A DNA stretch of 32,166 bases from Candidatus Zixiibacteriota bacterium (GTDB lineage Bacteria; Zixibacteria; MSB-5A5; GN15; FEB-12), in contig JAGGTI010000079.1 of the NCBI GenBank assembly GCA_021163775.1, forward strand, positions 1-32,166, read 5' to 3'. A model generated the notes under the pieces. The model saw only the letters and a list, made by a program, of their open reading frames with translations, had not been told where the DNA came from and did not search any database. Positions 1,604 to 17,592 of the stretch are shown here, piece after piece (the stretch's first letter is position 1; each line of letters begins with the position of its first letter). Position numbers and translations under genes: made by a program.

Positions 1604-2869
1604 ATGCTGGATATTAAAATAATCCGCGATAACCCGGACTTGGTAAAAGCCGGTGCGGTCAACAAGAATGACAAATGTGACATTGATCTGATTCTGGATC
1701 TGGACACGCAACGCCGTGAGATAATTCGCGAGGTGGAAAGCCTCAAAGCGGAGCGTAACCAGGCCAGTGCCCAGATCGCAAAGAAGAAGAAAGCCGGCGA
1801 GGATGCCGAGGAAGCGATCCTGGCTACCCGACAATTGGGTGAGCAGATAGCCGCTAAGGATCAGGCACTTCGGGATATTGAAACCAGACTGAGTGAGCAG
1901 ACTGCCCGGGTTCCTAATCTACCGCACGAGTCAGTGCCGATTGGTCGAGACGAGTTGGCCAATCAGGTGATTCGTGAATGGGGCACCAAATCAGAGTATA
2001 ATTTCAAAGTTTTGCCCCACTGGGAAATCGGTGAAAAACTTGGTCTGTTGGATCTCTCTGCCGCCACCGCCATGTCTGGTTCCGGTTTCTGGACACTTCG
2101 AGGTATGGGTGCCCGATTGCAACGTGCTCTGATTCAATATATGCTCGATCTGCACATCGCCGACGGCTTTGTCGAAGTCGCCGTTCCGTTTCTGGTAACG
2201 GGCGATAGTATGTTCGGTACCGGGCAACTGCCTAAACTGGCTGATGATATGTATCACGTCGAGTCTGATGACCTCTGGCTGATTCCCACTGCCGAAGTGT
2301 CGGTGACCAATCTGTATCGCCAACAGATAATAGCTGAAGAACAGTTGCCGATCAAATTAGTGGCCCATTCGCCCTGTTTTCGTCGTGAGGCGGGAGCGGC
2401 CGGCAAAGATACTCGCGGACTATTACGCGTGCATCAGTTTGACAAAGTGGAGATGGTGAAAATTGTCAAACCGGATGATTCCTATAACGAACTCGAGACT
2501 CTTACGGCGCAGGCTGAAAAAGTGCTCCAGGGGCTTAACCTGCATTACCGTGTCGCCACGCTGGCGACCGGTGACCTGTCGTTTGCCTCGGCCAAAACAT
2601 ACGATCTGGAACTTTGGTCGGCTGGGGTGGGACGGTATCTCGAAATATCTTCGATTTCCAATTTTGAGTCGTTTCAGGCCCGACGTATGAACCTGAGATA
2701 TCGCGATGCCAACAAGAAACCAGTCTTCCCGCACACGCTCAACGGTTCCGGGCTGGCCCTGCCGCGTCTGATGGCGGCCATTATGGAGAATTGGCAGAAC
2801 GAAGATGGCACTATAACTATTCCAAAAGTCCTCCAGTCGTATATGGGAGGAGCGGAGCAGATCAGGTGA
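1604..2869 (+). CDS. serS: Serine--tRNA ligase
   Basis: This class II aminoacyl-tRNA synthetase charges tRNA-Ser (and tRNA-Sec). The N-terminal MLDIKIIRDNPDLV is the standard SerRS start, so I place the start at the ATG at 1604, which has AGAGG 7 bp upstream. The longer ORF in the track uses a TTG and adds 23 unrelated residues. A long coiled-coil arm (about residues 28-100, rich in K/E/Q) is followed by the catalytic core: motif 2 FRREAGAAGKDTRGLLR and motif 3 LNGSGLALPRLMAAIMEN. The 421-aa length is normal. It is the first gene of a long packed plus-strand run; the histidine kinase starts 5 bp after its stop. Confidence 0.97.
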   Translation: MLDIKIIRDNPDLVKAGAVNKNDKCDIDLILDLDTQRREIIREVESLKAERNQASAQIAKKKKAGEDAEEAILATRQLGEQIAAKDQALRDIETRLSEQTARVPNLPHESVPIGRDELANQVIREWGTKSEYNFKVLPHWEIGEKLGLLDLSAATAMSGSGFWTLRGMGARLQRALIQYMLDLHIADGFVEVAVPFLVTGDSMFGTGQLPKLADDMYHVESDDLWLIPTAEVSVTNLYRQQIIAEEQLPIKLVAHSPCFRREAGAAGKDTRGLLRVHQFDKVEMVKIVKPDDSYNELETLTAQAEKVLQGLNLHYRVATLATGDLSFASAKTYDLELWSAGVGRYLEISSISNFESFQARRMNLRYRDANKKPVFPHTLNGSGLALPRLMAAIMENWQNEDGTITIPKVLQSYMGGAEQIR

Positions 2870-2874
2870 CTGCT

Positions 2875-4134
2875 ATGTTTAAGGGTAGACCAGGGAGAGT
2901 ATCCGAACTGTACGTGGGCCGCTCCACCATTCTCAAAGTGTTCCTGATCGGCGGTGTGCTGGTCATCTCGGCGATGTTTATCTGGTACACGTTTGATATT
3001 ATCGATCAACTCCAAAACGATACGCGTACCCAGGTCGATAAGTATGTTCGTCTCTGGCAACTTGCGGCCAACCTGCCAACTTCGGGTGATGAACAACAGT
3101 GTCTATTCTTTATTTTTGATGAAATTATTGTCAAAGCCCAGTTTCCAATCGTAGTTCTCGATCATGACCACGTGCCAGTTTCGTGGCGCAACATCTCTGA
3201 TATCCCTTCCGAAGATACGACCCAGGCGGCGTTCGAACAATTGCGTGAAGTGGCCGAGGGTATGTACCGCCAGAATGGTGAGTATCCGCTCTATTTCGGC
3301 GAGACCAATGTCAACTATCTGCGGTACGGCGATTCGGAGCTAATCAACCAACTCAGAGTTGTGCCGTTTGTAGCGGTCGGTATTGTCCTGGCTTTTATGA
3401 TTGTGGCGATTATCGGTTTCCAGAATATTCGACGCTCCGAGGAACGTCACATATGGGTCGGTATGGCCAAGGAAACGGCGCATCAGTTAGGTACTCCTCT
3501 CTCATCATTGTTAGGCTGGTTGGAACTGATTGACAAACCGAATCGACAGCAGTTAAGCAACAGCGAATTGGAGCAACTGCTGGATCAAACCACCATTTAT
3601 ATGAAGACCGATGTTGAACGCCTGCAACAGGTAGCCAACCGATTCGGTCAGATCGGCTCGGTTCCGGAGATTGAGGAGTGTGACCTGAATGCGCTGGTGG
3701 ACGAGGTCGTGCAATACTATATGATTCGACTTCCGTTTGAGGGTAAAGGGGCGCAAATAAAAGTATCGACCGGCGATATCCCCCCGGTGCGCCTTAATCG
3801 GGAACTATTCGGCTGGGTGTTGGAGAACCTGATTAAAAATTCACTCCAGGCGGTAGATCCAAAGAGCGGAATCATTACTCTGGTTACTAGCGTTGCTGAT
3901 GATCGCAAGAATGTCGTACTTGATGTCATTGACAACGGGAACGGTATCCCGGCTGGTGCCGCACGCAAGCTGTTCCGTCCCGGATTTACTACTAAGAAAC
4001 GTGGCTGGGGTATGGGGCTGACATTGGTCAAAAGGATCGTGGAAGAGTACCATGTCGGCCGGATCATATTGATGACTTCACGACCGGGCGAAACTATCTT
4101 TCACATAACTCTGCCAATCTCCGGTGGAAACTAA
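2875..4134 (+). CDS. Membrane sensor histidine kinase, partner candidate for PorX
   Basis: This is a predicted inner-membrane two-component kinase of 419 aa. The track ORF is longer, but its first 28 residues overlap serS; the ATG at 2875, preceded by AGGTGA, gives MFKGRPGRVS. One membrane helix lies at about residues 17-40 (VFLIGGVLVISAMFIW) and another at about 162-183, flanking an extracytoplasmic segment of roughly 120 aa. The H-box ETAHQLGTPLSSL places the phospho-accepting His at 203. The ATPase domain has the N-box NLIKNSLQA, DNGNGIP, FTTKKRGWGMGL and a short C-terminus. It lies 5 bp after serS and 9 bp before porX, so the two signalling genes are co-transcribed. By analogy with Bacteroidota PorY-PorX it is a likely PorX kinase, though partner choice is inferred from position only. 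Confidence 0.88.
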   Translation: MFKGRPGRVSELYVGRSTILKVFLIGGVLVISAMFIWYTFDIIDQLQNDTRTQVDKYVRLWQLAANLPTSGDEQQCLFFIFDEIIVKAQFPIVVLDHDHVPVSWRNISDIPSEDTTQAAFEQLREVAEGMYRQNGEYPLYFGETNVNYLRYGDSELINQLRVVPFVAVGIVLAFMIVAIIGFQNIRRSEERHIWVGMAKETAHQLGTPLSSLLGWLELIDKPNRQQLSNSELEQLLDQTTIYMKTDVERLQQVANRFGQIGSVPEIEECDLNALVDEVVQYYMIRLPFEGKGAQIKVSTGDIPPVRLNRELFGWVLENLIKNSLQAVDPKSGIITLVTSVADDRKNVVLDVIDNGNGIPAGAARKLFRPGFTTKKRGWGMGLTLVKRIVEEYHVGRIILMTSRPGETIFHITLPISGGN

Positions 4135-4143
4135 CAGGATGAT

Positions 4144-5700
4144 ATGAACAAAACTGACGACAAGAAGCGTATTCTCTGGATTGATGATGAAATCGATTCA
4201 CTCAAATCGCATTTCCTTTTTCTCGAGAGCAAAGGATTTGTGCTTACTGGCGCTATGTCCGGCGATGACGGCATTGCTCTGGTGCAACAGCAGAATTTTG
4301 ATGTAGTCCTGCTTGATGAAATGATGCCGGGCAAGGACGGTCTGACAACTCTGGAAGAGATCAAGAATATCCGACCACATCTGCCGGTTGTGATGGTGAC
4401 TAAATCTGAAGAAGAGTCACTCATGGATGATGCGATTGGTCAGAAGATCGATGACTATCTGGTTAAGCCGGTGGTGCCATCGCAGATTCTGCTGGTTATT
4501 AAAAGACTTCTCGATTCGAGGCGCATCATTGGGTCGTCATCAATGAAACGATATATCACCGAGACTAACCGGTTTAGGAATGATCTGTATGGCGTGATTT
4601 CCCCCGAGACGTGGTACGAAGCGGCCCGTATTGCTTCCGAGTGGAACCTGGAACTCGACGAGAGCAACGACAGCGGTCTGCAAGATATACATGTCGGCAC
4701 TAAAAATGAGTGGAACAACGAGTTTACCAAATATATACTGAAGAACTACCAACGTTGGATGACTGACGATGAACGCCCGATCCTCTCTCCCGATGTGACC
4801 GCGCAGTACGTTGTGCCCTTGCTCAAGGAACAGCGGAAGGTGCTCTATATTGTGGTCGACTGTCTGCGTCTCGACCAATGGATGCTGGTGGAGCCGTTAG
4901 TGGCTGAGTTCTTCAATGTTGAACGTCACTATTATACATCGATTCTTCCCAGTGCTACACCATTCGCACGCAACGCGTTGTTTGCGGGGATCTTCCCTGA
5001 TGAGATTCACAAGTTGTATCCCGATACATATGAAGGCAATGAAGGTTCGCTCAATCGGCACGAAGATCGCTTGTTGCTGGACAACCTTGCCCGGCATGGC
5101 GTGCGACTGGATAAAATGGCACGGTTCTTCAAAATTAACGACAACACACAAGGCGAGGAGCTGGCCCGCAAAGTATCCGACCTGTATGGGTATCAACTGG
5201 TCACGATAGTATTCAATTTTCTCGATATACTCGCACATGGTCGCTCAAGCAATGTTATTCTCAAGGAGATCGCCGGGTCGGAATCCGCTTTCCGATCACT
5301 GATGAAAACCTGGTTCACCTATTCGCCCCTGTTTACGATTCTCAAAGCGTTCGCCGAACGTGATTTTACGGTTGTGGTGACTACGGATCATGGTTCAGTG
5401 CTTTGTCAACGAGGCACGATGGCTCACGGTCGCCGGACGACATCGACCAATCTGCGCTACAAATATGGTGATAATCTCAAGGGTGATGAGAAAGAGGCTC
5501 TGATTATCAAGAAACCGGAAGAGTGGCGGCTTCCGTCGTTTACTCTCAGTACCAGTTATCTGATCGCTCGGGAAGATATGTACTTTGTGTACCCCAACAA
5601 CTACAACGAAATGGTCCGGCGTTTTCAGAATTCTTTCCAGCACGGTGGTATTTCGCTGGAAGAGATGATAGTCCCGGTTACAATTCTCAATCCCAAGTAA
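4144..5700 (+). CDS. porX: PorX-type response regulator with PglZ domain
   Basis: The N-terminal receiver domain (about residues 8-125) has the acidic pair in LWIDDE, the phospho-acceptor Asp58 in VVLLDEMMPG and a Lys in LVKPV. A helical linker leads to a PglZ domain of the alkaline-phosphatase superfamily (about 230-515). Likely metal and nucleophile residues are present: Asp239 in YIVVDCLRLD, Thr272 in SATPFAR, Asp415-His416 in TTDHG and the later AHGRR. In Bacteroidota, PorX of this architecture works with PorY to control the type IX secretion system and has been shown to act as a phosphodiesterase. At 518 aa the length is typical. The upstream kinase gene is 9 bp away and tsaE begins 4 bp downstream. 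No type IX secretion gene is visible here, so the regulated process is unknown. Confidence 0.9.
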   Translation: MNKTDDKKRILWIDDEIDSLKSHFLFLESKGFVLTGAMSGDDGIALVQQQNFDVVLLDEMMPGKDGLTTLEEIKNIRPHLPVVMVTKSEEESLMDDAIGQKIDDYLVKPVVPSQILLVIKRLLDSRRIIGSSSMKRYITETNRFRNDLYGVISPETWYEAARIASEWNLELDESNDSGLQDIHVGTKNEWNNEFTKYILKNYQRWMTDDERPILSPDVTAQYVVPLLKEQRKVLYIVVDCLRLDQWMLVEPLVAEFFNVERHYYTSILPSATPFARNALFAGIFPDEIHKLYPDTYEGNEGSLNRHEDRLLLDNLARHGVRLDKMARFFKINDNTQGEELARKVSDLYGYQLVTIVFNFLDILAHGRSSNVILKEIAGSESAFRSLMKTWFTYSPLFTILKAFAERDFTVVVTTDHGSVLCQRGTMAHGRRTTSTNLRYKYGDNLKGDEKEALIIKKPEEWRLPSFTLSTSYLIAREDMYFVYPNNYNEMVRRFQNSFQHGGISLEEMIVPVTILNPK

Positions 5701-5704
5701 TTCG

Positions 5705-6136
5705 ATGAAAGTTCTGAGTATTACTTCACACAACGAAGACCAGACTGTGGCATTGGCTACCAAACTTGCGGCGTCATTTGTCGATGGTGATGTCATGATT
5801 CTCACCGGAGAACTCGGCTCCGGCAAGACGACTTTTGTGCGTGCGCTTGCTATGGCTCGTGGTGTTGATGAAGATCAAATCAATTCGCCGTCGTACACTT
5901 TTGTCAATGAATACCCCAGCGACCCGCCGCTGTTCCATTTTGATTTGTACCGATTGAGCGATGTTTCCGAATTGACCGAGATTGGTTGGGAGGAGTATCT
6001 CGCGCGTCGCGGTATAGTGGTTGTGGAATGGGGTGATCGGGCCGGGGAAATGTTGCCGGATCGCTACTACCTGGCCGAATTCAAAATTATCGATGATCAA
6101 CAAAGACAGATAGAACTCTCGTTGGTGCAACCATGA
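5705..6136 (+). CDS. tsaE: tRNA t6A threonylcarbamoylation ATPase TsaE
   Basis: This small ATPase works with TsaB and TsaD to transfer threonylcarbamoyl to A37 of ANN-decoding tRNAs. The Walker A motif GELGSGKTT is at residues 35-43, followed by the family motifs SPSYTFVNEY, FHFDLYRL and VVVEWGDRA. At 143 aa it is full length. The last 4 bp overlap the start of tsaB, a standard coupled arrangement. Confidence 0.95.
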   Translation: MKVLSITSHNEDQTVALATKLAASFVDGDVMILTGELGSGKTTFVRALAMARGVDEDQINSPSYTFVNEYPSDPPLFHFDLYRLSDVSELTEIGWEEYLARRGIVVVEWGDRAGEMLPDRYYLAEFKIIDDQQRQIELSLVQP

Positions 6137-6822
6137 ACCGGATCGAATACGACAATGTCCTGGCAATTGACACTGCCACTCGAAAACTGAACCTGGCTGT
6201 CCGTTTTGGCGGTGATCGTCTGGTGAAATCGAGTGAAACGGTGGAGAAAACACACGGTCAAATCATCATGAAGAAAATCTCCGACCTGTTTGACTCGGCC
6301 GGTGGTTCGGTGAATGAATTGCAGGCAGTGGTGGTGGGTACAGGTCCCGGATCTTTCACTGGTTTGCGGATCGGTCTCGCCGCCGCCAAAGGGATTGCGG
6401 TTGCTCGCGATCTTCCTGTTGTGGGTGTTGGTGTGTTCGACGTAGCCGCGATATGCCTTCCCGCGGCTATTCATGCCTGGGTGCTGGTGCCGTCACGACG
6501 AGGCGAGTACTATGCTGGCAAGGTCGCCGCCGGGTCTCTCAACGCCGATAGTGTGCGAGTGATTGCTGAAGAAGAACTGTCAAGTCTGATTGGCTCTGAT
6601 CCGGTGTATGGAATTGATTTCAACCCAACCGAGACGCTGGCGTCTCTGATGTCAAACCTGACCGGCGAGCAACTGGTGTACGATGCTTCAGACATGCTTC
6701 AAGTTGGGCTGAGTCGATTGCAAGAATACGGTCCAACGAATCTGGCCGAGCTTGAACCGACTTATCTTCAGAAGGCTATTGCCGAAGTTCGGTTTGATCA
6801 GCGGCAGAAAGATTCTAAGTGA
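6133..6822 (+). CDS. tsaB: tRNA t6A threonylcarbamoylation protein TsaB
   Basis: This is the scaffold partner of TsaD in t6A biosynthesis, an inactive member of the ASKHA/TsaD fold. The N-terminus carries VLAIDTATRKLNLAV, then KTHGQIIM and the typical GTGPGSFTGLRIGLAAAKGIA at about residues 74-94. At 229 aa it is full length. It overlaps tsaE by 4 bp and rimI by 4 bp, so the three genes are translationally coupled. Confidence 0.95.
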   Translation: MNRIEYDNVLAIDTATRKLNLAVRFGGDRLVKSSETVEKTHGQIIMKKISDLFDSAGGSVNELQAVVVGTGPGSFTGLRIGLAAAKGIAVARDLPVVGVGVFDVAAICLPAAIHAWVLVPSRRGEYYAGKVAAGSLNADSVRVIAEEELSSLIGSDPVYGIDFNPTETLASLMSNLTGEQLVYDASDMLQVGLSRLQEYGPTNLAELEPTYLQKAIAEVRFDQRQKDSK

Positions 6823-7280
6823 AACCGGTTATTAGAGAGATGGTCGCCACCGATCTTGACCGAATTGACGAACTAGAGGAACAGATATTTCCTGATCCCT
6901 GGCCGACAGTTGCTTTTGAGGAACACCTCAAAGACCCCGAAGCTGGAGGGGCGGTGTCTCTAAGTGGTGATATAGTAATCGGTTACAGTTGTTATTGGGG
7001 TGACAGAGGGCAGATGCACCTGACTAATATGGCGGTTGATCCGGTATACCGGAGAAAATCTGTTGCGAACGAACTTCTCGGTCATATTTTAGACCTAGCC
7101 CGAAAGCAAGGATGTGAGCTTATCTTCCTGGAGGTTAGAGTCTCCAACGAGATTGCTCACCAATTTTACAAATCGGCCGGATTTCAAACTATTAATAGAT
7201 CTGCCGGCTATTATAATGATCCCACCGAGGATGCGTTGGTGATGTCGCGGTGGATAGAACCTGACCGCGACGGCAAGTAA
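6819..7280 (+). CDS. rimI: Ribosomal-protein-alanine N-acetyltransferase (RimI-like GNAT)
   Basis: This GNAT acetyltransferase is 153 aa and starts at a GTG that overlaps the tsaB stop. It carries the RimI signature LEEQIFPDPWP near the N-terminus, the beta-strand HLTNMAVDPVYRR and the C-terminal EVRVSNEIAHQFYKSAGF. RimI acetylates the N-terminus of ribosomal protein S18 and very often sits next to tsaB, as here. One oddity is the acetyl-CoA loop, normally R/Q-x-x-G-x-G/A. Here it reads R-R-K-S-V-A, with serine in place of the first glycine. Other GNAT targets are possible, but the neighbourhood supports RimI. Confidence 0.85.
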   Translation: MKPVIREMVATDLDRIDELEEQIFPDPWPTVAFEEHLKDPEAGGAVSLSGDIVIGYSCYWGDRGQMHLTNMAVDPVYRRKSVANELLGHILDLARKQGCELIFLEVRVSNEIAHQFYKSAGFQTINRSAGYYNDPTEDALVMSRWIEPDRDGK

Positions 7281-7283
7281 ACT

Positions 7284-8126
7284 ATGGAATGGTTTAGAAA
7301 AAGTAAGTCGGGGGTTGTTGCCCAGGAGAAGAAAAATATCCCGGAAGGGTTGTGGCACAAGTGTGAATCCTGTGGCGAGATAGTCTATAGTAAGAAGATG
7401 GAACAGTACCATTGGGTCTGTCCGTCGTGTAATTTTCATTTTAGGATATCCTGTCGCAAGTATATTGCTCTTCTGCTTGATGACGGTGCTCTCGAAGAAT
7501 ACGACAACAACCTGCAGTCGACCGATCCGCTGAAATTCAAAGATTCCAAACGCTATACGGACCGGATCAAAGCGGCCAATGCGAAGGCGGGTGACACTGA
7601 GGGCCTCGTGGCCGGTATTGCCAAGGTGGGCGGAGTTGAATTGTCGTTTGCCATTATGGATTTCGCCTATATCGGTGGTTCAATGGGCTCGGTTATGGGT
7701 GAAAAAGTGGCCCGGGCGATTGAGCGCTCTATCGACCGCAGAATTCCCCTTATCATTGTCTCTTGTTCTGGTGGTGCCCGGATGCAGGAAGGTGTGCTCT
7801 CGTTGATGCAAATGGCCAAGACCTCCGGACTATTGGCTGTATTGGCTGAAAAGAGAATCCCGTTCATTTCGGTGCTGACTCATCCGACTACTGGTGGGGT
7901 GATGGCGTCGTTTGCCGCCCTGGGCGATGTAATCATTGCCGAACCGAAAGCACTGCTTGGTTTTGCCGGCCCACGGGTGATCAAACAGACGATTGGGCAG
8001 GATCTTCCGGAGGGTTTTCAGTCTTCAGAGTTCCAGCTTGCGAAAGGGTTTATCGACCGGATCGTGGATCGCAAGGATCTCCGCCCTACAATTATTAGTC
8101 TGTTGAATTTCATGTGGAGAAGCTGA
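7284..8126 (+). CDS. accD: Acetyl-CoA carboxylase carboxyltransferase subunit beta
   Basis: This is the beta subunit of the carboxyltransferase that makes malonyl-CoA for fatty-acid synthesis. An N-terminal zinc ribbon is formed by Cys27, Cys30, Cys46 and Cys49 (CESC and CPSC). The crotonase-fold core follows with MDFAYIGGSMGSVMGEK, SCSGGARMQEG, THPTTGGVMASFA and GFAGPRVI. At 280 aa it is complete. It starts 3 bp after rimI, and its stop TGA shares a base with the folC ATG (TGATG). The partner accA is not in the window. Confidence 0.96.
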   Translation: MEWFRKSKSGVVAQEKKNIPEGLWHKCESCGEIVYSKKMEQYHWVCPSCNFHFRISCRKYIALLLDDGALEEYDNNLQSTDPLKFKDSKRYTDRIKAANAKAGDTEGLVAGIAKVGGVELSFAIMDFAYIGGSMGSVMGEKVARAIERSIDRRIPLIIVSCSGGARMQEGVLSLMQMAKTSGLLAVLAEKRIPFISVLTHPTTGGVMASFAALGDVIIAEPKALLGFAGPRVIKQTIGQDLPEGFQSSEFQLAKGFIDRIVDRKDLRPTIISLLNFMWRS

Positions 8127-9405
8127 TGCGGCGTCACACCTATCCTCAGGCCGAGAGATTTATCCTGTCGCGCGAATTCTTCGGGATGAAACTCGGACTG
8201 GATAATATAACCCAGTTTCTTGATTCTATCGGTGACCCACAACGTTCTTACCCGACCATTCATTTAGCTGGTACCAATGGCAAGGGGTCATGTGCCGCTA
8301 TGCTGGCAAATATTCTCCGGCGTGCCGGATACAAAACAGGGTTGTTTACGTCGCCGCACCTGGTTGAGTTCCGCGAACGTATTCGCATTGATGGGCGTAT
8401 GATTCCTCGCTCGGCCGTGACTAGGTTTGTTGATCGCCACCGTCAGACTCTCGTAAAAAAAAACTCTCTTTTTTTGAATTAGTTGCCGCCCTTGCTTTCG
8501 ATTGCTTCGCTCGACAACAGGTTGACGTTGCGGTTATTGAAACCGGTCTGGGCGGGCGGCTTGACGCTACCAATGTCCTGAATCCAGAGTTGACTATCAT
8601 TACCGATATCAGTTTTGATCATGGCGAAATCTTAGGGCCAACCCTCAGGGATATTGCTGGTGAAAAGGCGGGTATTATCAAACCTGGTGTACCGACCGTG
8701 ATCGGTTTCCTGTCGAGCACTGCAAGGTCTGTGATTGCCACCCGCTGTCGACAACTTGGTTCGCCACTGGTGCCACTGGCACGCGATGATGTTCGGATTA
8801 ATCGCTCGACACAAACGCTCGAATCAAATATTGAGGGTTTGCGCTTTAGGCGTCTGGCACCTTCATTACCGGGTGGTCACCAACTGAAAAATACCGCGCT
8901 TGTATTGAAAGCGATCGAAACTTTGCGGCATGGTGGCTTTGATATTCGAAAGGCGGATGTCAAAACAGGTCTCGAAACTACCGACTGGCCGGGGCGGTTC
9001 CAGGTGGTTCCGAAGGGGACCAGTTCACCGACAGTGGTTCTTGATGTCTGTCACAATAGCGGTGGAGCCAAAGCATTTGTTGATACTTTTAAGAAAGAAT
9101 TTCCACGGCGACAGGCACAGATGATAATTGGTTTTGTGCGACGCAAACCGCATCAGGAACTGATTGATCTTCTGGCGTCCATTACCGAACAGTTTTGGCT
9201 TGTTCCATTGGCATCAAAGCGGAGTGTAGACACTATCAAATTAATGAAAACTGTGAACTGGAATGGGGTCCCGGTCAAGCGAGTGGCACAGCTTCGCACC
9301 GCCTGGCAACAGGTACTTAAATGCGCCGCGCCCGATGATATTGTCGCAGTTATTGGTTCTCACTATCTGGTGGGTGAATATCTTAGCCGTTACGGTGGAG
9401 AGTAA
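8126..9405 (+). CDS. folC: Folylpolyglutamate / dihydrofolate synthase, split by a -1 frameshift
   Basis: FolC adds glutamates to folate and often also makes dihydrofolate. I choose the ATG at 8126, with GGAG 7 bp upstream and overlapping the accD stop; the track start at 8114 is a GTG inside accD. The first frame holds the P-loop HLAGTNGKGSCAAML and FTSPHLVEFRERIRIDG and then hits a stop at about 8480. The second frame, entered by a -1 shift, holds AALAFDCFARQQVDVAV, ETGLGGRLDATNVLNPE, SFDHGEILG and EKAGIIKPG and continues to 9405. The two frames join in the A9/T7 tract at 8455-8475. Slippage in the A run gives KKKLSFFEL, which resembles the K-L-T-F-F-E stretch common in FolC. It may be a decoded frameshift, a sequencing error or a recent mutation. 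Neither half alone would be active. Confidence 0.85.
8455..8475 (+). other. Tandem slippery tract (A9 and T7) at the folC frameshift
   Basis: The first reading frame passes through A-AAA-AAC and then T-TTT-TTG, both legal -1 slippery heptamers in the zero frame. A -1 shift is exactly what joins the two halves of folC. GCCGCCC (8485-8491) can pair with GGGCGGC (8554-8560), giving a possible downstream stem about 9 nt after the second slip site. Long homopolymers are also where sequencing and assembly most often go wrong, so this does not by itself show recoding. Confidence 0.5.
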
Positions 9406-10775
9406 TGACCAAGAGGAACAAAAAAAAGAAAGCCAAAAAAGAGGCAGAAGAACCCCTGCCGAAGATCTTATCTGAAGGCGTTGAAGAGATCGTGACGGCT
9501 GGTGCTACTCGGCGGCAATTGGACGAGTTGGGGGTGGCCAATCGCCATATGAAGCGGAAGATATTCGACCTCTATACTATCTTTGAAATCAGCCGTAATT
9601 TCAGCGCTGTTCTCGACTACAAAACATTGCTCGATTCGTTTATCTTTACCTGTCTGGGGCAGGTGGGGGTGTTGCGAGGGGCTATCTTTCTCAAAGAGCG
9701 TATTGACGCCCGTGTTTTCAAACTGGCCGAGGCGAAAGGCTCTGGCTCAATGCCGGGTCCCGAGCTGGTATTCGAAGATGACAGCCGTTTGGCCCGCTAT
9801 CTCACCAGACTTAACCGCCCGGTATTTTTGTATGATCTCAGTTCCAATATGACTACCCCTGAAGAAGCCCGAATCCTTGGGTTTTTCAAAGGTGGAATGA
9901 TCGCACCACTCATATATAAGACCCGACTCGCCGGACTTTTCTTATTGGGCGAGAAGATGTCCGCCCAGGTTTTCAATCAGGATGAAATTGAATTCGTTTC
10001 GGCGCTGGGTAACCAAATATCGGTCGCTATCGAAAACGCCCGTCTATACGAGGCCGAGAAATCTGCGAACGAACAGCTTTGGTCCGCACAACAAAAACTG
10101 GTTCAGGCTGAACGGATGGCCGCTCTGGGTGAAATGTCAGCCAAGATTGCGCACGAAGTAAATAACCCGCTCGGGATTATTAAGAATTACCTGCTACTGC
10201 TCAAGCGGGCCGGAGGGAAGGCCGAGGTGGTCGAAGAATATGTCGATATTGTGAATCAGGAAATTGATCGCATTGCCGTAATTGTTGAAGACCTGCGACA
10301 GTTCCAGCGTCCCAACCGAGTTGAATTCTCAGCGATCAACCTGTACGATACTATCGATTCTACTCTGACCCTTGTGTCTCGACAACTCGGGGTGGCTGGT
10401 ATTGAGTTGGTTCGTGAATACGGCGATGATGAACTGTGGATTAAGGGCAACACTGATCACCTGCGCCAGGTTTGTTTGAATATTATCCTCAATGCCGGCG
10501 AGGCTATGCTTGAGGGCGGAGTGTTGACGGTCGAATTGCATCAAATTGACAATCATGCAGTTGTTACCTTCCTGGATACTGGTCCCGGTATCCCCGATGA
10601 GGTTATACCAAGAATTTTCGAGCCGTTTTTTACGACCAGGGGTAGCGAAGGTTCCGGATTGGGTCTCTCCGTTTGCGATGGGATAATGAAAAGTCACAAA
10701 GGGTCGATAAACTATAGAAATACCGATGTCGGTGGGTGCTTCGAGATTCATCTACCGCTTATAGAGAAACAGTGA
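9405..10775 (+). CDS. Cytoplasmic GAF-domain sensor histidine kinase
   Basis: This 456-aa kinase has no membrane segment. A very lysine-rich N-terminus (TKRNKKKKAKK) precedes a GAF domain (about residues 55-205). A short coiled coil leads to a HisKA domain with the H-box KIAHEVNNPLGIIKN (His250). The ATPase domain contains NIILNAGEAM, DTGPGIPDE, FFTTRGSEGSGLGLS. The ATG overlaps the folC stop by one base and has GGAGAG upstream. The next gene, a hybrid kinase, starts 4 bp after its stop. With that gene and the sigma-54 activator at 13022 it probably forms one signalling unit. The signal sensed by the GAF domain cannot be read from sequence. Confidence 0.9.
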   Translation: MTKRNKKKKAKKEAEEPLPKILSEGVEEIVTAGATRRQLDELGVANRHMKRKIFDLYTIFEISRNFSAVLDYKTLLDSFIFTCLGQVGVLRGAIFLKERIDARVFKLAEAKGSGSMPGPELVFEDDSRLARYLTRLNRPVFLYDLSSNMTTPEEARILGFFKGGMIAPLIYKTRLAGLFLLGEKMSAQVFNQDEIEFVSALGNQISVAIENARLYEAEKSANEQLWSAQQKLVQAERMAALGEMSAKIAHEVNNPLGIIKNYLLLLKRAGGKAEVVEEYVDIVNQEIDRIAVIVEDLRQFQRPNRVEFSAINLYDTIDSTLTLVSRQLGVAGIELVREYGDDELWIKGNTDHLRQVCLNIILNAGEAMLEGGVLTVELHQIDNHAVVTFLDTGPGIPDEVIPRIFEPFFTTRGSEGSGLGLSVCDGIMKSHKGSINYRNTDVGGCFEIHLPLIEKQ

Positions 10776-10779
10776 GAAT

Positions 10780-12921
10780 ATGATCCCGGTAACTTCGAGG
10801 ATAATTATTGTCGATGACGAAGAGAGGATGTGCAATTCCCTCTCTGAGTTGCTGGCTGGAGAAGGTCATGAAGTCGTTGCTTTTCCCAAACCGGCTGAAG
10901 CGGTCGAGGCTATTCGTACCCAAAAAGTAGATCTGGTCATTACTGATATCCGTATGCCGGAAATCGACGGTTTGGAAATCCTGCGGGTGGTCAAGGAGAC
11001 CGATGAAGATATACCGGTAATTCTTCTGACTGGCTATGCCTCGCTTGACAGCGCATTGGGAGCAATTGGAGAAGGAGCATACGATTATCTGCTCAAGCCT
11101 GTTGATTTTAGCCGCCTCGAACTATCGGTTAATCGAGCTTTGGAGCACCGTCACGCCGAGTTGGCCCGTCTACGCCTGGTAGAGGAACTGCGGCTGTCCA
11201 ATCTGATTTTGCAACAGCGGGTTGGTGAGTTAAACGCTTTGTATGAAGCGGGTAAATCGATTGGTTCGTTAATCAATATCAAAGGTCTGCTCCGACAAAT
11301 TGTTGTCCTGGCCGCCAGTGTTACCGAGGCCAATGTTGGCTCAATAATGCTCGTGGATGAGGCCGGGGAATACTTGACCATTGAAGCGGCAATCGGTCTT
11401 CACGATGAGATTGTCCGCAAAACCAAGCTACCGTTGGGTGCCTCAATCGCCGGCTACGTGGCTAAAACCGGTAAACCGCTTATGGTTGAGGATGTGGAAC
11501 ATGATGACAGGTTCCAGCGTATGAATCGCGAGCGCTATGGAGCGGCCTCATTGCTTTGCGCACCATTGCGGATCAAAAATAAAATCCTCGGTGTGATCAA
11601 CATGGCTAATAAGAGCGGAGATCAAGTGTTCACCAAGAATGACTTGCGTCTCCTCACCAATTTCGCGGCGCAGGCGGCAGTGGCGGTCGATGATGCCTCG
11701 GAATTTCAGCGCAACCAGCGTCGTCTCGTGGAGTTCGAAATCCTGCACGATATTGCCCGGGAACTTCCCGGAGTGGATTCGCTCGTAGATTTTCGCCGGA
11801 TGCTGGTGGACCAACTTCGGCGGGTATTCCCGGTTGACTATGCAATATGGTTCGACTGGGACGCTTCTAATAAAATACTAACGCCCGCCGGTGCTCACGG
11901 TAAGACCGAAATACCGCTCACTGATAGCGGCAAGCTTGATGTCAGCCGCACTAAACGTGAAATGTTAGCTATCGCCGGGTTAGATATTGACAATCTTGAT
12001 CTTGAAGATATTGCCGCGGTTAGTTTACTCCTGGGTGAGAAGATAAAAGGCAACAAGCATTTTCCTCAACCCAAAGAAGCATACATGGCGGTTCCGATCA
12101 TTCGCAATGGCAAACCAGCTTATATTTTCTATCTCGGATCCAATGATGAGCGACCGTATGGAACTGATGATATATCTCTGGCCGAACTGGTGATTTCACA
12201 GGCCTCAGTGTTGTTTGAAAAGGAACAGACCCTCCTCAATGCTACCCGCCTTATGACAATGGGCAATATGATTTCTGAGATCTCCCACGATTTGCGCAAG
12301 CCGCTGACTTTAATCAAGGGTGGTCTGCAAATCGTTCGTCAGCGTTGGCCTGAAATCACCGAAAGCTCCGAGTTCTTTCAGATGGCCGAAGATGAAGTCC
12401 ATCGAATGAATGACTTAGTACGCGAACTGGTTGATTTCTCCAACCCAAATCGATACGAAACAGCCAAAATCGATTTGCGTCAAATTGCTGAGCGGGCGGG
12501 GGAACTTGTTGGACCTGATCTAAGAAAACACAAGATTACGTTTGAGATTAGCTTTGGTGCCGCAAACTGGGAGGTAATCGCTAACAAAAATCAGATTATG
12601 GAAGTCTTCCTCAATCTGTTTATAAACGCCATTGATGCTATGCCCGAAGGCGGTTCACTCACGGTTCGAGGAGAGATTGAGCAACCGGCTCACAAGAGCC
12701 AAGAATACTTGGCGATCAAAGTGAAAGATACCGGGGTAGGTATACGGAAAGGTGAGATCTCACGTATCTTTGATCGCTACTTCACGACTAAGGAGACCGG
12801 AACCGGTTTAGGTCTTGCCGTGGTAGAGCGAGTAATATCAGCTCATAGTGGTACTCTTCACATTGAATCGGAAGAAGGCCAGGGAACAACTTTTACTATA
12901 TATTTTCCATATAACTCCTAA
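10780..12921 (+). CDS. Hybrid signalling protein: receiver - GAF - (GAF-like) - histidine kinase
   Basis: The N-terminal receiver (residues 1-120) has VDDEER, phospho-acceptor Asp56 in VITDIRMPE and the Lys of LLKPVD. A coiled coil leads to a clear GAF domain (about 150-310, with APLRIKNKILGVINMANK). A second, weaker GAF-like region covers about 320-480. The HisKA H-box is SEISHDLRKPLTLIKGG (His503). The ATPase domain has NLFINAIDAMPEGG, DTGVGI and FTTKETGTGLGLAVV. A receiver placed before the kinase suggests that phosphorylation, perhaps by the GAF kinase encoded 4 bp upstream, gates kinase output. At 713 aa and without membrane helices it is cytoplasmic. The likely final target is the NtrC-type regulator 100 bp downstream, an inference from gene order. 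Confidence 0.9.
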   Translation: MIPVTSRIIIVDDEERMCNSLSELLAGEGHEVVAFPKPAEAVEAIRTQKVDLVITDIRMPEIDGLEILRVVKETDEDIPVILLTGYASLDSALGAIGEGAYDYLLKPVDFSRLELSVNRALEHRHAELARLRLVEELRLSNLILQQRVGELNALYEAGKSIGSLINIKGLLRQIVVLAASVTEANVGSIMLVDEAGEYLTIEAAIGLHDEIVRKTKLPLGASIAGYVAKTGKPLMVEDVEHDDRFQRMNRERYGAASLLCAPLRIKNKILGVINMANKSGDQVFTKNDLRLLTNFAAQAAVAVDDASEFQRNQRRLVEFEILHDIARELPGVDSLVDFRRMLVDQLRRVFPVDYAIWFDWDASNKILTPAGAHGKTEIPLTDSGKLDVSRTKREMLAIAGLDIDNLDLEDIAAVSLLLGEKIKGNKHFPQPKEAYMAVPIIRNGKPAYIFYLGSNDERPYGTDDISLAELVISQASVLFEKEQTLLNATRLMTMGNMISEISHDLRKPLTLIKGGLQIVRQRWPEITESSEFFQMAEDEVHRMNDLVRELVDFSNPNRYETAKIDLRQIAERAGELVGPDLRKHKITFEISFGAANWEVIANKNQIMEVFLNLFINAIDAMPEGGSLTVRGEIEQPAHKSQEYLAIKVKDTGVGIRKGEISRIFDRYFTTKETGTGLGLAVVERVISAHSGTLHIESEEGQGTTFTIYFPYNS

Positions 12922-12970
12922 TATCGTTGCACCTATTTGCGACAATTCCGCAATCGATGTAATTTTCACC

Positions 12971-12998
12971 TTGATTTGCAAACCTACTTGCCGATAAT
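12971..12998 (+). promoter_or_regulatory. Probable sigma-70 type promoter of the NtrC-family gene
   Basis: TTGATT and GATAAT are separated by 16 bp and lie 24 bp before the ATG at 13022, inside the only gap of 100 bp in this signalling cluster. The gene may therefore be transcribed separately as well as by read-through. GAAGGA at 13005-13010 is the likely ribosome binding site. Confidence 0.5.
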
Positions 12999-13021
12999 TA
13001 GGGCGAAGGAATAGACGACCT

Positions 13022-14452
13022 ATGCCCAAGGAAAAACCGAAAATCAAAGTTCTGGTCATTGATGATGACCCCAAGATTGCCTGGATTCTGTCGGAAGGTA
13101 TAACCTCGAATTTTGAGTTTGTGTCGGCTACTGATGGTATTGAAGGAATCCAGATGGTTTCCACCGAGAAACCGGACTTGGTGTTACTTGATATCAAGAT
13201 GCCCGGCATGAGCGGCTTGGAAGTGCTCGAAAAACTCAACAAGCTGAAGGATCGGCCCGAGGTGGTGATGATCTCCGGTCACGGTGGAACCAAGTATGTG
13301 GTCGACTCCATGCGTTTAGGTGCGGCGGAATTCATCGATAAGCCGTTTGATGTCCGCGAAGTGGAGATCCACTTGAATGGTGTTCTCGAACGGGTTAAAC
13401 TTAAAGACGAGGTCACTGAGCTTAAAAAGGAGTTGGAGGTTCGCTCTGACTATACTTCGTTTGTGGGCGATTCGGAACCGATGATAAGGGTCAAGAGCAT
13501 TATTGAGCAGGTGGCCGATTCCGAACTAACAGTGCTCATTCGTGGCGAATCCGGCACAGGCAAAGAGATTGCCGCCCGGTCGCTTTACCAGCTTTCCTCC
13601 AGGCGTGATTTGCCGTTCGTAAAAGTGAACTGTGCGGCCATCCCGCGAGATCTTCTGGAAGCAGAGCTGTTTGGCTACGAAAAAGGTGCTTTTACCGGTG
13701 CCTATAAGACCAAACGGGGGCGTTTCGAGTCAGCCAATAAAGGGACTATATTCCTCGATGAAATTGGTGATATGTCGTTGGAGTTGCAGTCTAAACTCCT
13801 ACAGGTACTTGAACAACAGGAGTTTGTTCGGGTGGGCGGAATCAACAATATCCGGGTCGATGTGCGTATCATCTGCGCAACCAATCGTAACCTCGAGCAG
13901 GCGATTGCCGACCGGGAGTTCCGGGATGACCTGTTCTATCGGCTCAATGAGATAACACTCTTCCTGCCGCCGCTTCGCGACCGTTTGGAAGATGTCCCGA
14001 TTCTGGTTAGTCATTTTCTGGATAAGTGCAATGCGCTCTATGGCAAGGAACACACCAGTCTGTCGGCGGATATTATCGCCAAGCTGATGGCCTTCCACTG
14101 GCCGGGTAATGTTCGTCAGTTGGAAAACATGGTCAAACAGGTGGTAGTGCGTTCTGATGAACAGATTATTTTCGAACTGATTGCTTCCGCCGCAAATCTC
14201 GGTGTTCCCGCTGGTAGTTCAATGCCGGGAGCCACAATTCAAACATTTGAAACAAGCGAGATTGACCCGGTTGACGGATATTCACTAAAGGCGAGAATCG
14301 GGCGAAAAGTAGCGGCCGAAGAAAAGCAACTTATATCCGAAGTCCTCACCAAGACAAACTGGAATCGGCGCAAAGCGGCTGAGATGCTCGAAATCAGCTA
14401 TCGATCACTGCTCTACAAGATCAAAGACTACAATCTGAACGCCACGAAATAG
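13022..14452 (+). CDS. NtrC-family sigma-54-dependent response regulator
   Basis: This is a transcription activator of 476 aa. The receiver domain (1-120) has VIDDDP, phospho-acceptor Asp57 in LLDIKMPG and Lys in FIDKPFD. The AAA+ domain (about 145-380) has Walker A GESGTGKE, the sigma-54 contact loop GAFTGA, Walker B GTIFLDEIGDM and the arginine-finger region FRDDLFYRL. A C-terminal Fis-type helix-turn-helix (NWNRRKAAEMLEISYRSLLYKIKDY) binds upstream activator sites. The domain set is complete, so it should be a phosphorylation-controlled ATPase that opens sigma-54 promoters. The two kinases immediately upstream are the probable inputs. The only clear sigma-54 promoter seen in the window is at the flagellin gene, but regulation across 13 kb is speculative. 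Confidence 0.95.
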   Translation: MPKEKPKIKVLVIDDDPKIAWILSEGITSNFEFVSATDGIEGIQMVSTEKPDLVLLDIKMPGMSGLEVLEKLNKLKDRPEVVMISGHGGTKYVVDSMRLGAAEFIDKPFDVREVEIHLNGVLERVKLKDEVTELKKELEVRSDYTSFVGDSEPMIRVKSIIEQVADSELTVLIRGESGTGKEIAARSLYQLSSRRDLPFVKVNCAAIPRDLLEAELFGYEKGAFTGAYKTKRGRFESANKGTIFLDEIGDMSLELQSKLLQVLEQQEFVRVGGINNIRVDVRIICATNRNLEQAIADREFRDDLFYRLNEITLFLPPLRDRLEDVPILVSHFLDKCNALYGKEHTSLSADIIAKLMAFHWPGNVRQLENMVKQVVVRSDEQIIFELIASAANLGVPAGSSMPGATIQTFETSEIDPVDGYSLKARIGRKVAAEEKQLISEVLTKTNWNRRKAAEMLEISYRSLLYKIKDYNLNATK

Positions 14453-15363: not shown

Positions 15364-15873
15364 ATGGTTGTAAGAAAGAGATTAGACATTAATGGGCCAG
15401 CCATTGCTTTCATCACTACAACAGTATTTGAGTGGAAACCGGTCCTCACACGGGGGAATGTCTGTCCCATTATCATCGAAGAACTCAATAAGACACGCTC
15501 TCTATTTCGACTGAGTATTATTAGCTATGTGATAATGCCAAGTCATATTCATCTTCTTTTGGGGTTTCCGAATATTGAAGACCTGTCAAAATCTATTCAG
15601 AGTTTCAAAAGCATTTCGTCCCGGCAAGTCAAGCAGTTATCTGTTCCAGAATTAGTAGAGAATGGCTACAAATTATGGAAACCTCGTTTCGACGATCTTA
15701 TTGTTACGTCAGAAAAGCAATTGAAGATTAAGATGGAGTATATTCATAACAATCCGGTTAGGGCAGGTCTGGTGGAGGCCGCTGAAGACTGGCGTTATTC
15801 CAGCGCTGTTGATTGGTTGACTTCAAGTACAGGTTTGATTAAGATCGACAAAGAGTTTCAATGGTTGATTTAG
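15364..15873 (+). mobile_element. REP-associated tyrosine transposase (RAYT, IS200-like Y1/HUH)
   Basis: This 169-aa single-strand DNA transposase carries the HUH motif as MPSHIHLLL (His61, His63) and the catalytic tyrosine in KMEYIHNNPVRAGL (Tyr126). That combination is the hallmark of the TnpA_REP/RAYT branch of the IS200/IS605 transposases. RAYTs act on REP palindromes scattered in the host genome rather than moving as an ordinary insertion sequence. Here the gene is flanked by two palindromes in one orientation upstream (15226-15335) and one in the opposite orientation starting 8 bp after its stop (15881). No strong ribosome binding site is visible before the ATG. The reading frame is intact, so it is probably active or recently so. 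Confidence 0.92.
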
Positions 15874-16185: not shown

Positions 16186-17592
16186 ATGCGTTTTGTATGT
16201 CGATTAATGGGGTGGAGCCTGATCACGCTCCTGTGGACGGCACCTGCCTCGGGTGATCCGGTCGCCGTGGAATGGGACACTATTGCGACGCATCCAAACC
16301 TGTATGATGATCCGGGAGCCGTTGACCGCGAGTCCGTTGGGCTGATTGTGTCCAATCATGGCGAGATGGGTCATGCCGGTTTGGGTGGCGCCAACATGGA
16401 TTTCGTGGCCTCGGGCTTCGAGTGCGGGACCAGGCCCGAAGACGCCGTCTACCTGTATAGCGGATCGCCGTATGTCATCCTGGCCGATGACTCTTACGGT
16501 GCAAATGCCCTGCTTACCTGCTCGTACGGCCAAATTGACGACACCAGACCATACAGTTGGGTTCCCACCGGTGAACCAGGAAGCATCGGGGGAGGCTTCA
16601 CGCCATGTCCCTATCGTCCCGGACCGATAACGCTTGGCAAGTTCCTGAGCAGAAACGGGGCAATTGCGATGGAGAGAACCTATCATCCGCCGCTCTACAG
16701 CGATGGCGCGCGAAACTTCATAATAGTAGAGACCAAGCTCTATTCTGGCGACGGCCAACCGCACAATCATCTCACAGCGGGGAGCGTGATGGACTGGAAT
16801 ATCCCCTCGGATTCTGCCAACATGAACACAAGTGGTGATACATGGGACGGATGGGGTGGTTTTGTGTATATGCAGGGAACAGACACAGCGATGAGCGAAG
16901 CCTGTCAACCAAATGTCGGCCGTTTTGCTGCCGAGGTTTTCGGCGGTGTAGCGACTGTGGCAGAATTTGCTGCTTTTGGCCGATGCGCCAACGGATCCGA
17001 GTATTGGAGTTGCTGGTCAGGGAGTCAGAAACTTCTTCGCGACACGAATCTTGCCCGCGATGGGGTAACTGTGATTGATCCGCCGCAACCTGATGCCAGA
17101 GCCTGGTGGGACGACATAGGGGCAAACCCGGAATTGCACAGTAACACTACGGCGGAGGACCAGGCGATCTGGCTCACCTACATATACAATTACTACCTTG
17201 GTGCCCAGGATACTCTATGGTTCTGGTCAGTACTTGCTGCTGTGCCCGATGGGACGGTCCATGACCTTCAGTCCGTGGTATCCGAGGCTAAGGTGTGGTG
17301 TACAGAGGTGATCCGTGAATGTCAGGCGGACTGCCAATTCTGTCGCACGGGTAATGCCAACGGAATGGGTGGCGATGAGCCAACAATAGGCGACATCAGT
17401 ACACTGATCGACGCCAAGTTTATCACTGGTACCTGTGACGGTATCATCCAGTGCCTAGAGGAAGCTGATGTCAACCAGTCTGGAGGGTCAGGGCCGACCT
17501 GCGATGATATCACGATTAGTGACATTGCGATGCTGATTGATTACCTGTTCATCACCGGTCCGTCACTCGGCCTGCCGCTCTGCAACCATTGA
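16186..17592 (+). CDS. Secreted protein with C-terminal dockerin-like repeats
   Basis: The 468-aa product starts with a signal peptide (MRFVCRLMGWSLITLLWTA, cleaved around residue 23). The central part (about 25-375) is not recognised; it is rich in Trp, Gly and Cys and appears globular. From residue 389 there are two EF-hand/dockerin-type calcium loops of the form GNANG...TIGDISTLIDAKFITG and ADVNQ...TISDIAMLIDYLFITG, with cysteine-containing inserts. Dockerin-like tails of this sort end many exported proteins in FCB-group genomes and may serve in anchoring; a matching cohesin is not seen here. The gene has its own promoter and is bracketed by repeat modules A and B on both sides. Its function is unknown. 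Confidence 0.8.
   Translation: MRFVCRLMGWSLITLLWTAPASGDPVAVEWDTIATHPNLYDDPGAVDRESVGLIVSNHGEMGHAGLGGANMDFVASGFECGTRPEDAVYLYSGSPYVILADDSYGANALLTCSYGQIDDTRPYSWVPTGEPGSIGGGFTPCPYRPGPITLGKFLSRNGAIAMERTYHPPLYSDGARNFIIVETKLYSGDGQPHNHLTAGSVMDWNIPSDSANMNTSGDTWDGWGGFVYMQGTDTAMSEACQPNVGRFAAEVFGGVATVAEFAAFGRCANGSEYWSCWSGSQKLLRDTNLARDGVTVIDPPQPDARAWWDDIGANPELHSNTTAEDQAIWLTYIYNYYLGAQDTLWFWSVLAAVPDGTVHDLQSVVSEAKVWCTEVIRECQADCQFCRTGNANGMGGDEPTIGDISTLIDAKFITGTCDGIIQCLEEADVNQSGGSGPTCDDITISDIAMLIDYLFITGPSLGLPLCNH

Follow-up and report, generated by a model that had tools for sequence, protein, structure and literature searches.

Genes at the locus

The window (the whole stretch of 32,166 nucleotides that was analysed, contig JAGGTI010000079.1 of a Candidatus Zixiibacteriota genome) carries serS, a histidine kinase gene, porX, tsaE, tsaB, rimI and accD as consecutive genes on the + strand, spanning positions 1604-8126. 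The first gene of this operon, serS (1604-2869), encodes seryl-tRNA synthetase (NCBIfam TIGR00414, 498 bits). After a gap of 5 bp comes the gene for a membrane sensor histidine kinase of 419 residues (2875-4134), which matches HATPase_c and, weakly, HisKA, and which we assign below to porY. A further 9 bp separate it from porX (4144-5700), whose product of 518 residues comprises a CheY-like receiver, a three-helix linker and a PglZ domain of the alkaline-phosphatase fold (NF052313; Pfam Response_reg and PglZ). There follow, on the same strand, tsaE (5705-6136; TIGR00150, 111 bits), tsaB (6133-6822; TIGR03725, 125 bits), rimI (6819-7280; TIGR01575, 114 bits) and accD (7284-8126; TIGR00515, 377 bits). 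Spacing throughout the run consists of gaps of at most 9 bp or short overlaps, tsaE/tsaB and tsaB/rimI each overlapping by 4 bp. No terminator-like site with more than 6 stem pairs was found on the + strand from serS to accD; two strong terminator-like hairpins lie upstream of serS (1047-1138). A preliminary description of this DNA had given the gene order from serS to rimI and the coordinates 2875-5700, which are correct, and family scans confirmed its gene names.

Several features flank the operon. Upstream, a flagellin gene (244-1011) precedes the two hairpins; SprA-type secretion genes are found in the same genome. Downstream, folC is broken (8114-9405), with its N-terminal part (8114-8482) and its C-terminal part (8590-9405) in differing frames. 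It is a single open frame in relatives (loci L177 and L179), and the split in the window is either a real break or an error of the draft assembly. A second two-component cluster (9405-14452) encodes a GAF histidine kinase, a receiver-GAF-histidine kinase and an NtrC-type sigma-54 activator. Further on we note a REP-associated tyrosine transposase (15364-15873; IS200-like, NF047646, 108 bits), adjoined by a protein of 468 residues (16186-17592) that is without an NCBIfam match.

PorX and its adjacent kinase

The porX product scores 636 bits on NF052313, the NCBIfam equivalog model for PorX (cut-off 300 bits), its residues 9-518 aligning with model positions 2-513. It also matches the solved homologues 7pv7, 8p6f and 8ted with E < 1e-128, aligned nearly end to end; the phmmer score against 7pv7 (P. 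gingivalis PorX) is 442 bits. Roles for the residues of the receiver site and of the two-zinc site are taken from the crystal-structure paper, in which the PglZ domain of PorX is a phosphodiesterase (PMC10951265). In an alignment of 31 sequences the receiver residues Asp14, Asp15, Asp58, Thr86 and Lys108 are invariant, as are the zinc ligands Asp239, Asp361, His365, Asp415, His416 and His500 together with the catalytic Thr272 (codon 4957-4959, + strand, placed by alignment with 7pv7). Asp58 (codon 4315-4317, + strand) corresponds in the alignment to the Asp that accepts the phosphate in P. gingivalis PorX, and is predicted to have the same role. Judged by these matches the protein is a true PorX, in agreement with the name that the preliminary description had given to the PglZ protein. 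F. johnsoniae PorX (Fjoh_2906; PDB 8p6f, 8ted) has the same domain order and active site. The PglZ domain is common to PorX and BREX, and a role in BREX or other anti-phage defence was considered and rejected: the score on BREX_PglZ_3, 88.6 bits, is far short of the 250 bits required, and the neighbours are housekeeping genes. Unlike BREX PglZ, the window PorX carries an N-terminal receiver, and no BREX genes are among its annotated neighbours.

By inspection, the kinase has two hydrophobic stretches, at around residues 20-42 and 160-182, flanking a putative periplasmic sensor region; P. gingivalis PorY has two membrane helices. Its H-box, IWVGMAKETAHQLGTPLSSL, holds the predicted phospho-acceptor His203 (codon 3481-3483, + strand), which is invariant in both alignments, A1 and A2; the motif as a whole (IWVGMAKETAHQLGTPxSSL) is nearly invariant. 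PorY of P. gingivalis has a mass of 44.6 kDa and autophosphorylates on His193, the phosphate then passing to Asp58 of PorX (PMC5445135). No curated PorY model is among the best NCBIfam matches of the window kinase; the identification was made through the Porphyromonas loveana gene and the published residue numbers and mass, not through the P. gingivalis PorY sequence. PorX of P. loveana and PorX of P. gingivalis share 91% identity; the kinase counterpart in P. loveana has 397 residues, a mass of 44.7 kDa and an H-box histidine at position 193. The window kinase is 33% identical to this protein over 413 residues, with His203 aligned to His193. Each of 10 named Bacteroidota genomes holds exactly one full-length counterpart (10/10, 291-344 bits), the next-best kinase in these genomes scoring no more than 104 bits. 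In a maximum-likelihood tree the kinases encoded beside porX group with the Bacteroidota counterparts as a single clade (100/100), and 15 others, among them the window's two additional kinases, fall outside it. Because there is one counterpart per genome, because the P. loveana protein agrees with PorY in His193 and in mass, and because the clade is supported at 100/100, we assign the kinase as the PorY orthologue and not as a new partner. A structure of the kinase predicted from its sequence alone had a pLDDT of 40 and was set aside. Both window proteins are full-length orthologues of P. gingivalis PorX and PorY (PGN_1019 and PGN_2001, PorY being judged via P. loveana), with the phospho-acceptor His and Asp, the catalytic Thr and the zinc ligands all kept.

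Gene order in two phyla

The genome from which the window comes is a draft of 2.37 Mb, 77% complete, and we surveyed it along with others of its phylum (133 genomes from 19 families). PorX is found above the cut-off in 119 of the 133, or 122 with fragments counted, and the kinase in 121 (profile A2), as a rule in single copy. Genomes that lack one of the pair are mostly incomplete, or have a fragment of porX or of the kinase gene at a contig end. Of the 119 genomes that hold both, 118 have the kinase gene immediately before porX in the same orientation, and so this order is not due to chance. The sole exception (G108) has serS and the kinase gene on one contig and porX-tsaE-tsaB-rimI, as well as accD, on another. 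In that genome an apolipoprotein N-acyltransferase gene follows the kinase gene (L172:737-3363) and a phosphoglycerate mutase gene precedes porX (L173:164-6456). The preliminary description had tied the kinase to PorX by position and had proposed a survey of gene order across genomes; these counts strongly support the tie, and the kinase, moreover, is assigned to PorY.

For comparison, 148 genomes were drawn evenly across Bacteroidota. PorX is present in 118, each of which also has a single match to the kinase, and both are missing from the other 30. SprA is found in 117 of the 118 genomes with the pair and is absent from all 30 without it, although these 30 absences may reflect few evolutionary events and the co-occurrence counts are thus not independent trials. 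In none of the 118 are porX and porY adjacent. The nearest placement in this sample is about 10 kb, in G207, G211 and G223 (L174:3380-15744). The preliminary description was right that the two genes are unlinked in the best-studied Bacteroidota (PMC5445135, PMC10951265). They lie far apart in P. gingivalis, whereas they are adjacent in the operon of the window, whose host is not a member of Bacteroidota; separate genes are the rule throughout the sampled Bacteroidota, and in the window's phylum the rule is contiguous porYX.

In 22 Bacteroidota genomes porX follows sprA in the same orientation at no more than 1.7 kb, and in 16 of these at no more than 250 bp, distances being measured from profile edges. 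Two loci read sprA-porX-tsaE-tsaB-(one gene)-accD (L170:2121-10590 in G266 and L171:2261-10805 in G216), with sprA occupying the place that porY has in the window. Since these loci share the downstream genes of the window, gene neighbourhood ties PorX to the SprA translocon. More widely, among the 70 loci from named Bacteroidota whose downstream sequence is long enough, 43 have tsaE next to porX. The porX-tsaE-tsaB-accD backbone is common to the window and part of Bacteroidota, which suggests that the downstream part of the arrangement is old. PorX of Bacteroidota is known from experiment to serve type IX secretion, so the tRNA genes beside porX are no evidence of a role in tRNA metabolism. 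The placement beside tRNA charging and modification genes, which the preliminary description had noted, stands.

Type IX secretion and the role of the pair

SprA matches (E <= 0.001) occur in 130 of the 133 genomes of the window's phylum, and in 124 they exceed the cut-off of TIGR04189 (200 bits). The SprA of the window's own genome (G000:C47) has 2036 residues and scores 537 bits. The same genome has 36 matches to the type A sorting domain (TIGR04183), and such domains are present in 31 of 31 genomes searched. Going by these model matches, the outer-membrane and cargo parts of type IX secretion are present in the window's genome. A search for such genes had been recommended in the preliminary description, which had suggested that the pathway might here serve something other than type IX secretion. 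With SprA, 36 sorting domains and the proximity of sprA and porX in 22 Bacteroidota genomes, that suggestion is unsupported.

The motor protein PorL/GldL is a binding partner of PorX in P. gingivalis and F. johnsoniae (PMC10951265). With the GldL model TIGR03513, PorL/GldL was detected in 8 genomes of Bacteroidota; each scores high on the PorX model (>770 bits where measured) and is taken for a member of Bacteroidia. It was detected in 0 of 7 lower-scoring Bacteroidota genomes, taken for members of other classes, and in none of the genomes of the window's phylum searched; these class assignments are inferred from the PorX-model scores and not from labels. A profile built from seven PorL proteins (A3) gave the same distribution in 45 genomes, save for one marginal match (E = 0.04). 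PorL is short and both models are of the Bacteroidia type, thus a diverged PorL could escape both. The partner known for P. gingivalis PorX, and the GldL known for that of F. johnsoniae, have no detectable counterpart in the window's phylum. On these searches, many lineages retain PorY-PorX together with SprA but show no recognisable form of the known PorX target. The proximity of sprA and porX, together with the undetected PorL outside Bacteroidia-type genomes, raises the question of what PorX acts upon there.

We consider it probable that porY and porX are kept as a contiguous operon pair in which phosphotransfer to PorX controls SprA/sorting-domain (type IX-like) secretion. The observations behind this reading are that both proteins are orthologues of PorY and PorX, that their genes are contiguous across the phylum, that the two co-occur strictly in Bacteroidota, that the catalytic residues are intact and that the genome has SprA and sorting domains. 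Phosphotransfer, dimerisation and control of secretion are added from published work on the homologous proteins of P. gingivalis and F. johnsoniae. In such a scheme the PorY orthologue would sense an envelope signal and autophosphorylate on His203, from which the phosphate would pass to Asp58 of PorX. Phosphorylated PorX would dimerise, its two-zinc PglZ phosphodiesterase would be switched, and the switched protein would control the SprA/sorting-domain secretion of the genome. Most likely, the genes for tRNA and lipid functions are long-standing operon neighbours and not targets, because porX is repeatedly found next to tsaE in Bacteroidota (43 of 70 named loci). Counting against this explanation are the undetected PorL/GldL in the phylum and a Bacteroidota genome (G144) that keeps the pair without a SprA match.

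PorY has been in doubt as the kinase of PorX: the genes are unlinked, and the effects of deletion differ, loss of porX abolishing T9SS function in P. gingivalis and loss of porY sparing it (PMC11320123). Independent evidence for the pairing comes from another phylum, where the genes are contiguous in 118 of 119 genomes, and from their strict one-to-one co-occurrence in Bacteroidota. Given the difference between the two deletions, which also counts against the explanation above, PorX may draw phosphate from other sources too.

The system is not of a new kind; new here are that a second phylum has the two genes in one operon, that PorX and the kinase co-occur strictly, that sprA is linked with porX and that PorL goes undetected. 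In the literature, of which most subscription papers were not covered and in which prior reports are thus possible, we found nothing relevant on type IX secretion in Zixibacteria or Ignavibacteria, nor on porX-sprA operons. Tentatively, the SprA translocon could have PorY-PorX as its old core controller, one that predates the motor of PorL/GldL type. The window's phylum and non-Bacteroidia Bacteroidota would then have SprA-type secretion with an unrecognised motor or none, and the conserved output of PorX would be its PglZ chemistry and not the binding of PorL.

Other explanations fare less well than control of secretion by the pair. PorY and PorX might jointly control something wider, such as nucleotide signalling or envelope stress, and type IX secretion would then be one output among others. 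This would accommodate both the conservation of the pair without a detectable PorL and G144, and the route from the PorX phosphodiesterase to the T9SS is still elusive (PMC10951265). We think it unlikely, however, in view of SprA being found in 117 of 118 pair-bearing Bacteroidota genomes and in 0 of 30 without the pair. G144 has intact porX, tsaE and porY counterparts (L180:7841-9394, L181:8305-9525) and is a possible case of PorXY acting without type IX secretion. It is more doubtful still that the kinase and PorX have been rewired to translation or tRNA modification, so that the phosphodiesterase would serve not secretion but RNA or nucleotide substrates linked to serS, tsaE, tsaB and rimI. 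The shared operon, the phosphodiesterase nature of PglZ (PMC10951265) and the failure to find PorL would fit, but SprA and sorting domains are present, porX is next to tsaE also in Bacteroidota with a secretion-serving PorX, and part of Bacteroidota has sprA upstream of porX with the same tsaE-tsaB-accD downstream. That an unrelated kinase landed beside porX by chance, the true partner being a distant one, is very improbable: histidine kinases are numerous, with others in the window at 9405-10775 and 10780-12921, but these two fall outside the PorY clade, and the adjacent kinase has its place in 118 of 119 genomes, a PorY orthology supported at 100/100 and, as a rule, one copy per genome. The operon pairs of the window's phylum are natural material for biochemistry and for the analysis of residue covariation between PorY and PorX.
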